Virus record (IMG/VR): IMGVR_UViG_3300034018_001774
Location: 1-23,538 of that record
Strand: one strand, 5' to 3'
Length of the DNA: 23,538 bases
Source of the DNA: a virus
Position numbers and translations under genes: made by a program. The notes beneath the pieces are model-generated. The model was given only the letters and a program-made list of their open reading frames with translations, was not told the DNA's origin and ran no database searches. This document shows positions 3,785-21,664 of this stretch, piece after piece. Numbering within the stretch: the stretch's first letter is position 1; each line of letters begins with the position of its first letter.

Positions 3785-4166
3785 CCGCACCACCCTCCGC
3801 ACCCTAGCCGACCTCGCCGCCCTCCTCCAATGCGCCCCAAAGACCGCTCGGGTCCGGCTGAATGACGCAATGGTGAAGGATCCCGGCTTGCATGTCACCC
3901 GCCGGGGCCGCACCATTCTATTTACCGAACAGCAACTCACCCGGGTTATTCAGGCCCTCCAATGGCGATCCACCTCCGCAAGCGCGGCTCCGTCTGGTAT
4001 GCCTCGGGCACCGTCCGCGTTGGCCGGGAAAGCCATGCGGTTGCCGAATTCAGCACAGGAGCGCGTGCGCGAATTGACGCGGAAGCTATCGCGGCCGCCG
4101 AAGAAGCCCGCATCCGACAAACCGCGCTTGCAGGCCCTTCAGGGCGGGCGCGCGTCCTCACCATAG
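3777..4166 (+). CDS. Excisionase-like HTH protein overlapping the integrase gene
   Basis: The ATG at 3777 overlaps the previous gene's end by 8 nt. Residues about 6-65 (LRTLADLAALLQCAPKTARV, GLHVTRRGRTILFTEQQLTRVIQAL) form a winged-helix/MerR-like DNA-binding unit of the sort seen in phage excisionases. It lies directly before the integrase, the usual xis-int order. The frame does not stop there: it continues for 205 nt inside the integrase gene, adding a basic, low-complexity tail (VRELTRKLSRPPKKPASDKP) to reach 129 residues. Only the first 65 residues look domain-like. Xis directs integrase toward excision (family knowledge); activity here is inferred. Confidence 0.65.
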   Translation: MTDRTTLRTLADLAALLQCAPKTARVRLNDAMVKDPGLHVTRRGRTILFTEQQLTRVIQALQWRSTSASAAPSGMPRAPSALAGKAMRLPNSAQERVRELTRKLSRPPKKPASDKPRLQALQGGRASSP

Positions 4167-4987
4167 CGGCGGCGATTGAAGCCTACCTAACCCGTCCGGG
4201 TGGCGTAGCCCGGCAAGACGCCCAAAAATTGGGCCGCGTAAATGACGCTATTGGCGCCTATACCCTAGCCGATGCGCCGGCCGCCTGGGCCGCCTGGCAG
4301 GCCGAAAACCCCGACCATACCCCCGCCACTGCCACCCGTTACCGCGCGCTGCTGACCGCCGCCATTCGCACCGTCTGCGCCAGCATAGGGGCTGATGCGC
4401 CCGCCTTGCCGGCAGTGCGGCACCGCAAGCGGGAAATGCTGGCACACCTGACCGACACAGAACGCGCCGCCCTGCTGCGCGCGTATAGCCCCCACGCGGG
4501 CGCCGTGGTGCTGGTGCTGGCCTATCAAGGGATGCGCACGCGCGAAGCGCTCAGGCTGGATTGGCGTGATGTGGATTGGCGCACGGAAAGCCTGCGCATC
4601 CCGGCGCAGCGGGCCAAGGCGGGCCGGGCGCGCGCCGTGCCGATGCACCAGCGCGTGCGGCTGATGCTCTATGGCCTATGGTGTGCCGCTGGCCAGCCCC
4701 AGGCCGGGCCGGTGTTCCTATCCGCACGCGGTGAACCCTACGCCGACACGCGCGATATTGGCGGCAATCCCCTGGCAGCGGCGCACCGCACCGCGTGCCG
4801 GAAGGCTAGCGTGAAGGACTTCAGGGTGCATGACTGGCGCCATGACTGGGCCGCGCGCATGGTGCTGGCCGGTGTGGATTTGGTGACGCTGATGGAATTG
4901 GGCGGCTGGCAGTCGCTTGCTATGGTGCAGCGGTATGCCACCATCCGGGCGGATCACCGCCGGGAAGCGGTTGCCCGGCTGGCGTGA
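3962..4987 (+). CDS. int: Tyrosine recombinase (phage integrase)
   Basis: The product has 341 residues, a normal length for phage integrases. The N-terminus (AIHLRKRGSVWYASGTVRVG) resembles the beta-sheet arm-binding domain of lambda-type integrases. Residues about 60-150 fit the core-binding domain. The catalytic domain keeps the full set: Arg192 (in GMRTREAL), Lys219, His290 and Arg293 (HDWRHDW), Trp316 in the usual His/Trp position (LGGWQS) and nucleophile Tyr325 (QRYA). It should catalyse site-specific recombination between attP and the host tRNA site. The start lacks a clear Shine-Dalgarno sequence and lies inside the excisionase-like gene, so translation is probably coupled. The candidate attP begins 13 bp after the stop. 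Confidence 0.93.
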   Translation: MAIHLRKRGSVWYASGTVRVGRESHAVAEFSTGARARIDAEAIAAAEEARIRQTALAGPSGRARVLTIAAAIEAYLTRPGGVARQDAQKLGRVNDAIGAYTLADAPAAWAAWQAENPDHTPATATRYRALLTAAIRTVCASIGADAPALPAVRHRKREMLAHLTDTERAALLRAYSPHAGAVVLVLAYQGMRTREALRLDWRDVDWRTESLRIPAQRAKAGRARAVPMHQRVRLMLYGLWCAAGQPQAGPVFLSARGEPYADTRDIGGNPLAAAHRTACRKASVKDFRVHDWRHDWAARMVLAGVDLVTLMELGGWQSLAMVQRYATIRADHRREAVARLA

Positions 4988-5695: not shown

Positions 5696-6093
5696 CGCGC
5701 CACCCCGCGCAGCTTCTCAAACGTCCGCAATCCGCCGATGCCCAGCATGGCCAGGACCAGCTCGAACAGGTGATCAAACTGAATGGCCGGCAGCTCGGCA
5801 CGGATGCCCAGCACCACCAGCGCCCAGGATGCAATCGGCGCCAGAACAAATGCCCAGGCTAGCCCGGCGGCGCAGACCCAGCCGATCGATGGCCGCCACC
5901 CGGCAACGAATACGTTGGAATGCGCGGCCTCCACCTTATTGACCTCGACCTGTGCCATTGCAGCCGCGTTTGCAGCCGTCACAAGCTGCTGCTCCATCTC
6001 CGCCTTGGCGCGTTCAGCCGCCGCGCGGTCAGGGATTAGCCGGTCAATTAGCGTGCCCAGGGCGGGCAGTAGGGCGGTGATTACGGGGATCAC
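5692..6093 (-). CDS. Holin of the 3TM (GTA-type) family
   Basis: The product has 133 residues. It has a hydrophobic N-terminus (about 2-20, IPVITALLPALGTLIDRLI), a charged Ala-rich helix (24-60, RAAAERAKAEMEQQLVTAAN), the family hallmark GWRPSIGW (65-72) running into a TM segment (to about 96), and a last TM segment (about 108-122). This order is that of the three-TM holin family found in gene transfer agents and alphaproteobacterial phages. It would make the inner-membrane holes that release the endolysin. The start is GTG 6093 with GAGGAGG 8 nt upstream. The endolysin follows directly with a 4-nt overlap. Confidence 0.85.
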   Translation of the reverse strand: MIPVITALLPALGTLIDRLIPDRAAAERAKAEMEQQLVTAANAAAMAQVEVNKVEAAHSNVFVAGWRPSIGWVCAAGLAWAFVLAPIASWALVVLGIRAELPAIQFDHLFELVLAMLGIGGLRTFEKLRGVAR

Positions 6094-18225: not shown

Positions 18226-19428
18226 TTAGGCGGCGAAACGATCAATCTGGATGGCAGGCAGTGCGAGATCATTGCCGCCTTCAATGTCGAAGCGCGCCAG
18301 AATGGCTTGGTTCGGACCGCCGACCTGAATGTTCGGGTTCATCAGATTAGCACCGGGAAGGGTGAAGATGTAGTTATTGCCCTGCGGGTCACGCTTACGC
18401 CACGCCACACGCGAGCGCGTTTCGTTCTTGAATAGCGCGTATTGCGTGAAGTCCTTGAAATAGAGTTCAATCTGCCCGGCGACTTGCACCTGGCCCCACC
18501 GCGCGCCCTGAGCGGCGGCGCTGCCCATGCCGTAATCCATGCCAGCGCCTTCGCGGGATACCGTGAGCGCCACAGAATTGACGGCGGCAGACAGCGCCGT
18601 GTCATCAATCTGCACGCCACCGAAGGCCGCGACGCTATCAAAGAAGCCGCCGGTCGGCGCCGCAGTTACCGTGCCGTTACCGGCGGCGGTAATCGCGCTC
18701 ACTTCATCGCGCGCCGCGATGTTTAGGCTACCCGTGAAGAATTGGCCCGTGCCGCCAGACAGCGACAGCGAGGACACCATGGCGCCCGCGTAGCGCAGCC
18801 AAAGCGCAGCGGCAAAACGGTTTTGCAAGTGGAAGCTTTTCACCAAGTCGCCATTGCGGAGCATCCCCGCGTTGCGGACAGACGCCGCCGTGCCCGCCGG
18901 GGTTTCCGTGCTGGCGATGGTCTTGCCGGCAAGGGTGAGGCTCTGGTTGTTTGTCTTGGTGGCGATACGATAAAAGCCGTTGTTGGCGCCGCTGCCAGCC
19001 GTAAAGCCGCGCAATTCAATCCACTGGCCTTCAAGCAAGTTCTGAAACTTGTTCGACGTGGTAGAGGAAAGCACGTTCGTGCCGGTGGTGACGGTAATGT
19101 CTGCCGCAACGCCCGCGATGGTTTGCGCCGCCGACCAATCACCGCCAAGCGCGCCCGCAAAGAAATCGTCGAACGTGCCATAAGACAGGTTGAAATTGAT
19201 AGCGCCGCTGGCCTGTTCGCTTTGCGTCACGGAAGGCGACACGCGGCGGGTGCCGGTGATTTCATTCGGGCGCGTGCGGGCCTTGCTGCCCGAGAGGCTT
19301 TCGCTGGTGATGCGGAGCGCGGTGAATGCGCTATTCGGCGCCGTTCCCCAGGTTGCTTCCGGCACATAGGAAAGCGTTGTTTCAGTCGTTTCAATACCGG
19401 CCTGATAGCCGGTGACAGAACCGCTCAT
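18226..19428 (-). CDS. Major tail (tube) protein
   Basis: The product has 400 residues. It starts AGIETTETTLSYVPEATWGT then APNSAFTALRITSESLSG, the signature beginning of phage tail tube proteins of the Phage_tube_2 type. It continues with many beta strands (GAINFNLSYGTFDDFFAGAL, QWIELRGFTAGSGANNGFYR, GQVQVAGQIELYFKDFTQYA). About residues 95-190 look like an added beta domain on the tube surface. The C-terminus (IFTLPGANLMNPNIQVGGPN, ARFDIEGGNDLALPAIQIDR) is typical for a tube fold. AAGGAA lies before ATG 19428. It is flanked by the tail terminator and tail chaperones, exactly the expected order. Confidence 0.87.
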   Translation of the reverse strand: MSGSVTGYQAGIETTETTLSYVPEATWGTAPNSAFTALRITSESLSGSKARTRPNEITGTRRVSPSVTQSEQASGAINFNLSYGTFDDFFAGALGGDWSAAQTIAGVAADITVTTGTNVLSSTTSNKFQNLLEGQWIELRGFTAGSGANNGFYRIATKTNNQSLTLAGKTIASTETPAGTAASVRNAGMLRNGDLVKSFHLQNRFAAALWLRYAGAMVSSLSLSGGTGQFFTGSLNIAARDEVSAITAAGNGTVTAAPTGGFFDSVAAFGGVQIDDTALSAAVNSVALTVSREGAGMDYGMGSAAAQGARWGQVQVAGQIELYFKDFTQYALFKNETRSRVAWRKRDPQGNNYIFTLPGANLMNPNIQVGGPNQAILARFDIEGGNDLALPAIQIDRFAA

Positions 19429-19477: not shown

Positions 19478-19870
19478 CTATGCAGGCCGGTCCGTGTAGG
19501 TCCATTCAACCGTGACGGTCAGAACCCACCACTTCCCGTCTTCGCTGGGGACGCCAGCGCCGATGGAGGCGCGGCGATAGACGGTGTACCCGACCACGCC
19601 GCGATAAATGTTCGCTATGTCTTTCGCCACTTGGCGCGCGGTAGCGCTGCCTGTGCCGAGCGGCACGATGACATGCACCATGAAGGTGCCGCGCTCTTCC
19701 CACGCGCCGTTGCCGAGTTCGATTGGCTCCAGCACATCGCCTTCAGCCTCAACCGAAAGCCAAGCCGCCAAGTCAGGCGCGGCGAATGCCTCATTCGGCC
19801 ACTCGATAGGATAGGGCAGCGCGGCGGCTACAAGGCGCGCTCTGGCGTCGTTCCAAGGTTCCGGGCTCAT
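19478..19870 (-). CDS. Tail terminator-like protein (DUF4128 type)
   Basis: The product has 130 residues: N-terminal helix (WNDARARLVAAALPYPIEWP), then strands (DLAAWLSVEAEGDVLEPIEL, ERGTFMVHVIVPLGTGSATA), a helix (RQVAKDIANIYRGVVGYTVY), and final strands (EDGKWWVLTVTVEWTYTD). This alpha/beta order and size match the DUF4128/gpU-type tail terminators, which cap the tail tube and join it to the head. ATG 19870 begins 3 bp after the previous stop. Its position just before the tail tube gene agrees. Confidence 0.78.
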   Translation of the reverse strand: MSPEPWNDARARLVAAALPYPIEWPNEAFAAPDLAAWLSVEAEGDVLEPIELGNGAWEERGTFMVHVIVPLGTGSATARQVAKDIANIYRGVVGYTVYRRASIGAGVPSEDGKWWVLTVTVEWTYTDRPA

Positions 19871-19873
19871 GTG

Positions 19874-20227
19874 TCACCCGCCCCGCACATGAAGGGCATA
19901 GGCGACCGCCGTAGAGGCAACCATGAGGGGGTTGCAGCCAAGCACAGCCCAATTCTTTCCATCAATCGCCACGAAATCGCCTTTGACCGGGGGCGCAAAG
20001 CCTGCCGATGCCAAGACCGGCGCGGCGTTGATTGTCATTTCAGCGTCGCCATTCATCACCCCGCCCGTGATTTCTTCCGGGCTGAAGCTGCGTAGCCATC
20101 CTGTCACGGCGATTTCCGTGAAGGTGGTTGTCATTGCTTGCCGGCGGCGCAGCGTGGCAGGGCGGCCAAAGCGCGCAATCAGACGCGGCACGGCTGAGGC
20201 GATGCTCACGCGCCCATCTTTCGCCAC
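19874..20227 (-). CDS. Head closure / neck protein
   Basis: The product has up to 117 residues and is beta-rich: an N-terminal helix (IASAVPRLIARFGRPATLRR), TFTEIAVTGWLRSFSPEEIT, then VKGDFVAIDGKNWAVLGCNP near the end. The KGDxVxIDGKxWxV pattern is common among small head-closure (gpFII-like) proteins. The start is uncertain: GTG 20227 overlaps the upstream gene by 22 nt, whereas GTG 20209 overlaps by 4 nt (GTGA) like its neighbours and would give 111 residues. Location between the connector and tail terminator supports a neck role. Confidence 0.65.
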   Translation of the reverse strand: MAKDGRVSIASAVPRLIARFGRPATLRRRQAMTTTFTEIAVTGWLRSFSPEEITGGVMNGDAEMTINAAPVLASAGFAPPVKGDFVAIDGKNWAVLGCNPLMVASTAVAYALHVRGG

Positions 20228-20796
20228 GGCGCCAGCAGCGCGGCGGCTTCAATCGGGATGGCTTCGGCCCCGGCGCGCGGGTCAAGGTATGAGACGGACC
20301 CGACACCATCGGCGCTCTCGGAGCGGATGCGCGGATCGCGGCCGCGCGCGGTTTGCAGGCCAGCCAAGGTGGCGAGACACGCGCGTTCAATGTCTTGCGG
20401 CAGATCGGTTAGCAGCGCATAGCCCGCCGCGTAGGTGACTTGCACCACCGCCGCGCGCCATTGGATGCGATAATCGCCGGACAGCCGATAAAGCAGCGAG
20501 CCGTCGAGTTCGTAATCTGTCGCGGCAAGCGTGGTGCCGTCCTCGATGACTGAGGTAATGGCCGGGTTCAGATCCCGGTCGAGAATGATGCACGGCAGAT
20601 CGACGCCGCGCTCAGTCTGCCGCACGGTTGCCCGGCCAAAGCCTTCCGCCCGCCCGCAATACCGCGCGCAAGCGTCCGAAGCCTGACCGATCAATTCTTG
20701 CAAGCCCGCCGTCGCGTCCGAGATAGCCAATTCGCGCGCCGCCGTGGCCAGCACGGTCAGCATGTTCGTGGCGGGCGGGGTTGTGACTGTGATCAT
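20206..20796 (-). CDS. Head-tail connector, HK97 gp6-like
   Basis: I choose ATG 20796 (196 residues), which overlaps the upstream stop (ATGA). A longer open frame to 21114 exists, but its extra N-terminus is Cys/Arg-rich and is the shadow of the repeat-protein gene. The product starts with helices typical of gp6-like connectors (MLTVLATAARELAISDATAG, LQELIGQASDACARYCGRAE). It then has a beta part (AITSVIEDGTTLAATDYELD, IQWRAAVVQVTYAAGYALLT) and a last helical part (LPQDIERACLATLAGLQTAR) ending near SVSYLDPRAGAEAIPIEAAA. Such proteins form the ring below the portal through which DNA passes. Confidence 0.8.
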   Translation of the reverse strand: MITVTTPPATNMLTVLATAARELAISDATAGLQELIGQASDACARYCGRAEGFGRATVRQTERGVDLPCIILDRDLNPAITSVIEDGTTLAATDYELDGSLLYRLSGDYRIQWRAAVVQVTYAAGYALLTDLPQDIERACLATLAGLQTARGRDPRIRSESADGVGSVSYLDPRAGAEAIPIEAAALLAPWRKMGA

Positions 20797-21149
20797 GGCC
20801 TTGCCTGCGCTGGAATGAAGTTGCCGCGTGATGCAGCCGGGGTGAAAGTCCTGCCCTGAGCCGCCTGAAAAGCAGCGCGGGCGAAAGAAGCAGAGAAAGC
20901 ACCGCGAGAAACCGCCAGAGAAGGCGCTTGGCGGGATTGCGCCGCATGGAAAGCCGGACGTAGCAGCGCCGCAACCAAAGCCGCCCTTGCGCTTGCTACA
21001 GGCAGCGCGGGGCGGTTTGTCGCAAGATTGAAGCCGCCGCGATTGAGAGCGGGAATAAAAACGCCGCGCGAGAGCGGCAGATTGTTGGTGATAACGCCCC
21101 AGGCGTTGCCCCATGAATTACCCCATGCCGCACCCCAGGCGGAAGCCAT
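20793..21149 (-). CDS. Repeat protein: WGxx repeat followed by about ten 9-residue repeats
   Basis: The product has 118 residues. Residues 1-18 (MASAWGAAWGNSWGNAWG) are four tandem WGxx units (Trp5, 9, 13, 17). From Arg28 to the end it can be written as nine-residue units beginning with Arg: RGVFIPALN, RGGFNLATN, RPALPVASA, RAALVAALL, RPAFHAAQS, RQAPSLAVS, RGAFSASFA, RAAFQAAQG, one 8-residue unit RTFTPAAS, then RGNFIPAQA and a final RP. Consensus is R-[G/P/A]-x-[F/L]-x-x-A-x-x. Short Trp-Gly-rich ORFs are seen near connectors in other phages, but I know of no function. The ATG overlaps the previous stop (TAATG) and the TGA overlaps the connector start, so it is a real, coupled gene. It may be a structural or assembly protein. 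Confidence 0.72.
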   Translation of the reverse strand: MASAWGAAWGNSWGNAWGVITNNLPLSRGVFIPALNRGGFNLATNRPALPVASARAALVAALLRPAFHAAQSRQAPSLAVSRGAFSASFARAAFQAAQGRTFTPAASRGNFIPAQARP

Positions 21150-21664
21150 TACACCGGCCCGAAGGGATCAGCTTCAGTGCCAGCGCCATCCACAGTGACC
21201 GCGTTCACCTTTCGGATGTCCGCATGGATCGGCGTTGCCGCCGCCGCCGCCAGCACCGCCGCCGCGTTCTGTGCAGCGGTAGGAACGCTACCGCCCGCCG
21301 TGACCACGGTTGAAGCCGCAGACTGGATCAGGAGGGTTTGGACGCCGGCAGTATAGGCAATGGGGTCTCCGCCTGGTCCGCCGATGAAGTTTCCACCCGC
21401 GATTCGGGCGACGTAATCTCCGGCTGGGAAGCGAAGTTGCCACGCCCCCAGTACTTCGACGGTGAGGCCGACCTGAACACCGGGGCCAAGGTTATTGAGC
21501 CCTGATCCGCGTCCGATTCGGTCATAGATGATTCCCTCCTCACTTGCCTGCGCTGCCTTCACCGCAGCGTAAAGCGTGGCGCAATCAACATCCGCGACAC
21601 CCACATCCACATCAATGCGGGACGTCACGAAATCAAAGGTGAAAGGCGCGGCGTAATAGGCCAT
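21149..21664 (-). CDS. Virion-module protein of unknown function, 171 residues
   Basis: The product begins AYYAAPFTFDFVTSRIDVDV, contains TLYAAVKAAQASEEGIIYDR and a beta-rich centre (GLTVEVLGAWQLRFPAGDYV), and ends in an Ala-rich helix and the motif ADIRKVNAVTVDGAGTEADP-FGPV. The last element, RKVNxVxVxGxGTxxxPFGP, is frequent at the end of phage surface and tail-spike proteins, where it may help oligomerise (recalled, not proven). Start and stop overlap the neighbours by one base each (TAATG). It lies between a large surface protein and the repeat protein in the head region. Confidence 0.62.
   Translation of the reverse strand: MAYYAAPFTFDFVTSRIDVDVGVADVDCATLYAAVKAAQASEEGIIYDRIGRGSGLNNLGPGVQVGLTVEVLGAWQLRFPAGDYVARIAGGNFIGGPGGDPIAYTAGVQTLLIQSAASTVVTAGGSVPTAAQNAAAVLAAAAATPIHADIRKVNAVTVDGAGTEADPFGPV

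Follow-up and report, generated by a model that had tools for sequence, protein, structure and literature searches.

A small phage protein with a WGxx head and an arginine-led nonapeptide array, encoded between a fibre-like protein and the head-tail connector: a candidate neck tether

The analysed window, a virus-contig fragment of 23.5 kb, carries on its minus strand, in this order, a partial beta-rich ORF, an ORF of 478 aa, an ORF of 171 aa, the gene of the protein studied here (P0001), genes for a head-tail connector, a head closure protein, a tail terminator and a tail tube protein, and a long tape-measure-like ORF. ORFs were defined from stop to stop without a gene caller, and the contigs are fragments. 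The 171-aa protein (21149-21664, minus strand) is fibre-like and about 30% identical to the L061, L076, L014 and L138 proteins, which also precede genes with the WGxx head described below. It ends in a tag, IRKVNAVTVDGAGTEADPFGPV (21152-21217, minus strand), that is common to genes upstream of WGxx genes. Its AlphaFold model is of low confidence, and a fold search with that model was uninformative. P0001 (20793-21149 including the stop, minus strand) is followed on the same strand by the connector or adaptor (20206-20796; phrog_442, E 2e-25), the head closure protein Hc1 (19874-20227; phrog_161, E 1.5e-12), the tail terminator (19478-19870; phrog_179, PF13554) and the tail tube protein (18226-19428; PF18906, E 1e-34). 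P0001 overlaps both of its neighbours, its start codon sharing TAATG with the stop of the 171-aa gene and its own stop sharing ATGA with the first codon of the connector gene, which is the arrangement of translationally coupled genes. A plus-strand ORF of 341 aa (3962-4987) looks by eye like a tyrosine recombinase or integrase and suggests a temperate phage.

P0001 has 118 residues. Residues 1-18 form the WGxx module MASAWGAAWGNSWGNAWG (21096-21149, minus strand), with the four WGxx units at residues 5-18 or so. After a nine-residue spacer follows the Arg-led nonapeptide array (residues 28-118; 20796-21068, minus strand), which consists of ten complete units, one of them of 8 residues, and a final Arg-Pro. 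Arginine stands at residues 28, 37, 46, 55, 64, 73, 82, 91, 100, 108 and 117, so that nine of the successive spacings are 9 and a single one, the last but one, is 8. The unit consensus is R-[GPA]-A-[FL]-x-[AP]-A-x-x, and over lags 2-30 the body correlates with itself most strongly at lag 9 (autocorrelation z 8.6), a value reached in 0 of 5000 shuffles. The original prediction, four WGxx units followed by arginine at every ninth position with one 8-residue unit, is thus borne out by the residue positions, and its placement of the protein just before the connector agrees with the phrog_442 match and the ATGA overlap. The plus strand at 20802-21137, where the protein had been located, is non-coding; the ORF sits on the minus strand.

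The frame is translated, and its period is kept by selection on the protein. Between the window and six distinct near relatives, dN/dS is 0.17-0.39, which is purifying selection, and substitutions at the three codon positions of the P0001 frame number 16, 15 and 38, the third position being favoured; in the other sense frames over P0001 the same changes would be mostly nonsynonymous. Codon positions 1 and 2 account for the 27-base period of the array, to which position 3 contributes little. Recent DNA duplication is therefore no explanation for the repeat.

AlphaFold gives no confident fold for P0001 (mean pLDDT 47). No family in Pfam or PHROGs matches it at E ≤ 1, and tblastn of P0001, of its upstream protein and of single WGxx proteins against annotated phages gave no match. 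PDB searches with WGxx, tag and array proteins returned nothing relevant, and a DNA pattern for four consecutive nonapeptides found minisatellites only. The earlier statement that no family with this repeat is known stands as far as Pfam, PHROGs, PDB sequences and the literature searched are concerned, in which neither the WGxx/tag motif nor the Arg-9 motif is described.

P0001 has 11 close relatives and one divergent homologue, L038, which is 44% identical to it. In L038, 12 of 13 arginines lie in one phase of a strict nine-residue register, with autocorrelation peaks at lags 18 and 9 (z 10.8 and 9.2), and the residues invariant between the two proteins are mainly Arg1 and Ala7 of the unit. 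Loss of the period in relatives, which had been named beforehand as grounds for refutation, was looked for and did not occur. Among the matches listed, all 20 readable contigs that lack WGxx and whose connectors are 79-96% identical to that of the window encode nonapeptides of this type in the gene that immediately precedes the connector; the N-terminal part before these nonapeptides consists of 22-residue Ala/Gly/Thr repeats and not of WGxx. The array remains linked to the connector when the N-terminus is exchanged. The longest chains comprise about 2-6 nonapeptides in the WGxx-lacking contigs; the window has 10-11 and L038 has 12. The variation of unit number for which a check had been proposed is found, from about 2 to 12. 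In L020, L022-L037 and L039-L042, proteins with repeats of about 22 residues rich in Ala, Gly and Thr (GATLTASASFIPGAATGAAVAP) fill the slot of P0001 and have the same nonapeptide ending.

The original prediction missed that WGxx is a separate and very widespread module, paired with the tag of the preceding gene. A DNA pattern for four WGxx units detected in viral contigs, among the matches listed, minisatellites and some 40 ORFs that start with M-x-S-x-WGxSWGxSWG and have unrelated bodies; in all, the module was found N-terminally in about 100 phage proteins among the matches listed. When 28 genes directly upstream of WGxx genes were picked solely by their neighbour position, 27 ended in the tag ANIxxVNxxxVxGxGTxxxPWGP (among the matches listed). 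A scan in the opposite direction, starting from the motif VxGxGTxxDP[WF]GP and requiring a WG-type start within a few bases, found such a start next to 80 of 87 distinct tag genes, against 6 of 2450 control stops, i.e. other ORF stops of the same tag-bearing contigs (again among the matches listed). Several of the seven exceptions are followed by shortened or altered aromatic repeats. The window itself contains such a pair, since P0001 begins with at least three WGxx units and the upstream gene ends in DGAGTEADPFGPV, its TAA overlapping the ATG. These gene pairs show WGxx to be a mobile, widespread N-terminal module whose gene almost always follows directly on a tag gene. The genes after the pair are mostly those of head morphogenesis (scaffold, capsid, protease) and sometimes terminase, Gp77 or adaptors. 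In bacterial genomes the pair pattern gave chance matches only, among the matches listed, and tblastn of the tag against annotated phages gave two weak matches, of which MW202621 has a short WG-type partner. In the other, L413 (MW202627.1, 4082-4252), the tag ends in GDKWRA and the partner begins with AFDSDAFDTDAFDTDAFDLD, an AFDTD repeat and not WGxx, which suggests that the aromatic repeat can change together with the tag.

The bodies behind the WGxx heads are of many kinds. In L069, L080, L108, L116, L132, L139, L213 and L277 unrelated middles are followed by an acidic and then hydrophobic tail, for example DDEEALxLLLL; a tail of this type is seen in many WGxx proteins and forms a third conserved element of the module. 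Tryptophan recurs every ten residues (W-x9) behind the head in L081:998, L092:451(-) and L264:5261(-), and two WGxx blocks per protein, about ten residues apart, occur in L133, L209, L234 and L241. The WGxx proteins of L043, L115, L136, L160 and L216 are long and contain tandem repeats of another sort, with units of about 20-22 residues. An upstream protein in L214 (minus-strand match 5715-5752) has the C-terminal tag twice in tandem.

Among the 93 testable WGxx bodies of the matches listed, Arg-9 periodicity is found in the window clade, L038, L013 (11 of 12 units), L071 and L215. The next gene is a phrog_442 connector for the window clade and L038, and a Gp77 homologue (PF23148) for L013, L071 and L215. 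The remaining WGxx bodies before Gp77 or a connector are only L203/L249, L189 and L121 (among the matches listed), the last of which has eight arginines spaced by 8 or 7 and precedes a connector. Counted by lineage, the association of an Arg-9 body with Gp77 or a connector as the next gene has a Fisher probability of about 1e-6. A further arginine match with period 11, in L194, is weak.

Similar Arg-led nonapeptide tails are encoded directly before Gp77 in numerous unrelated phages. Contigs were chosen by a Gp77 DNA motif, the divergence of the aligned Gp77 proteins being too great for a scan at the protein level, and among the matches listed the upstream gene has at least three arginines at spacing 9 in 57 of 93. 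Shuffling of the tails gives a mean of about 5 (maximum 11), and periods 7, 8, 10 and 11 give 3-4. At least four arginines at spacing 9 are present in 44 of the 93 tails against 86 of 1750 control ORFs, which contain non-genes, so that their rate for at least three (323 of 1750) is inflated. The tag-first and the Gp77-motif scans are fresh selections, and some of the other tests were devised after the first examples. The consensus of the tails before Gp77 is R-[TS]-[LVI]-x-[VI]-[PA]-A-[ED]-[SND], and position 8 is Glu or Asp in about 76% of the units. Among the isolates examined, only Lacusarx, Mwe-JY26, Mae-JY28 and DSL-LC06 reach significance in the Arg-9 test; the tails of BcepIL02, Itty13, BcepMigl and PBC5 are too short to do so, and no Arg-9 tail was found in JY22, Faith1, CRP-603 and Atu_ph08. 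Taken together, the Arg-9 body of P0001 belongs to a class of arrays that lie directly before adaptor genes. Of the two suggestions in the original prediction, the evidence favours the chain of identical binding sites, since Arg-9 recurs in unrelated sequences before Gp77 and connectors; an AlphaFold model of such low mean pLDDT speaks neither for nor against a regular fibre or solenoid.

As to function, we consider it an even call that P0001 is a small accessory protein of the virion, an extended tether at the phage neck that ties a fibre to the neck. Its WGxx head would dock to the tag at the end of the 171-aa fibre-like protein. The nonapeptides would dock singly to subunits of the neck or adaptor ring, the connector here and Gp77 elsewhere, as the rope of vertex fibre I of the podophage GP4 may do. 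The unit number would then set reach or stoichiometry. A broader form of this idea is rather unlikely, namely that Arg-led nonapeptides are a general phage neck-docking code with one unit per adaptor-ring subunit and a number that sets stoichiometry: about three per fibre on a GP4-like Gp77 collar, and ten to twelve in the window and L038, enough for a belt round a twelve-subunit connector.

It is also conceivable, if unlikely, that P0001 is an assembly chaperone of the upstream fibre protein, whose WGxx head recognises the C-terminal tag during folding and which is absent from the virion or only transient there. Fibre/chaperone pairs are usually laid out in this way, the fibre gene coming first and a small gene whose product has a conserved pairing module coming next, and the bodies are very diverse, many of them helical and charged with a DDEEA-LLLL end. 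However, such a role leaves unexplained why Arg-9 bodies specifically precede Gp77 and connector genes, and why Arg-9 tails occur on long repeat proteins without WGxx. A receptor-binding tip, with WGxx fixed to the fibre end and the variable body binding the host as T-even gp38 does on gp37, might also account for a conserved head, a hypervariable body and a tag on the preceding fibre-like protein. We think this quite improbable, since it is precisely the Arg and Ala register positions, where a receptor binder should vary, that the array retains in the 44% identical homologue, and since the array follows the neck genes even where its N-terminus is a different one.

The composition of the array, with 11 Arg and no Lys, Asp or Glu, might point to a DNA-binding polycation, with packaged DNA or DNA near the portal as possible targets. 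That is very doubtful, given exactly one arginine per nine residues, a conserved Ala7, and the acidic residue at position 8 of most Gp77-type units, which makes those arrays no polycations. The idea that arrays and tags are recombination-prone boundary sequences without a specific binding role, at which modules are indeed swapped, is largely refuted by the dN/dS values, the period on codon positions 1 and 2 and the adaptor-specific placement, and can hardly be upheld.

Returning to the tether, the way in which tailed phages join interchangeable fibre parts appears to be marked by two short linear motifs that are absent from the searched libraries. One is the tag/WGxx junction of adjacent genes, the other the Arg-every-nine tail in front of an adaptor. 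If confirmed, this would give a function to many small unannotated proteins, allow fibre attachment to be predicted from the sequence, and open the role of the GP4 rope to tests in many phages.

Several known systems resemble parts of this arrangement. RTX nonapeptide repeats share the nine-residue period with P0001; however, their consensus GGxGxDxLx is absent from P0001, which has no Pfam match. In T-even gp37/gp38 and other pairs of a fibre and its partner, the small second gene encodes a constant attachment part and a variable body. The likeness to the pair in the window is one of gene layout, the tag and WGxx being short linear motifs.

A closer likeness exists with the tails encoded upstream of Gp77 in Lacusarx (LAV_00108), Mae-JY28 (XAI96198), DSL-LC06 (WKW35119) and Mwe-JY26. 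As in P0001, arginine recurs every nine residues at the C-terminus, the adaptor gene is next, and Pro/Ala6 and Ala7 are preferred. These tails, with units R-[TS]-[LVI]-x-[VI]-[PA]-A-[ED]-x, stand behind long beta-type repeats, whereas the units of P0001 stand behind WGxx and lack Val/Ile5 and Glu/Asp8, sharing Arg1, Pro/Ala6 and Ala7. With arginine excluded, the fit to the Gp77-type profile is modest (p 0.009 for the window, 0.0025 for L038). No homologue of Gp77 or of the GP4 bead protein was found in the window or in near relatives, an absence that is weak since the contig is a fragment. With these genes missing and Val5 and Glu8 absent from the units, it is not established that the two array types are homologous; P0001 probably works like the Gp77-type tails, a common origin being unproved.

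In the GP4 entry PDB 8jou, three chains of a Gp77 relative (fibre-tail adaptor, PF23148) are accompanied by ten chains of a 140-aa bead protein, presumably gp80, which has a homologue in the Burkholderia phage BcepMigl (E 2.5e-59). In GP4 a fifteen-fold Gp77 collar reportedly bears five fibres, each with five bead dimers on a rope protein. The GP4 paper (Zheng et al. 2023) is cited in PMC12810830 and PMC10925440, and the latter mentions a fifteen-fold collar like that of GP4. PDB sequence searches with relatives gave no match to the rope. In BcepMigl and BcepIL02, a repeat protein with a short Arg-led end adjoins the bead gene, near or next to Gp77. Judged by this synteny and by the reported make-up of GP4 fibre I, the slot of the array protein in the Burkholderia phages would be where the GP4 rope is expected, and three Gp77 per fibre would match the about three nonapeptides of the BcepMigl and BcepIL02 proteins. 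In the Burkholderia phage JC1 the homologue of the array protein, gp54, is absent from the virion proteins detected by mass spectrometry, among which are the bead protein and Gp77 (PMC9144972); this counts against the tether. GP4 fibre I has Gp77 and the bead protein, and the window has a homologue of neither. The likeness lies in the Arg-led tails, which in many phages are encoded directly before Gp77, also beside bead genes, just as P0001 is encoded directly before the neck adaptor.
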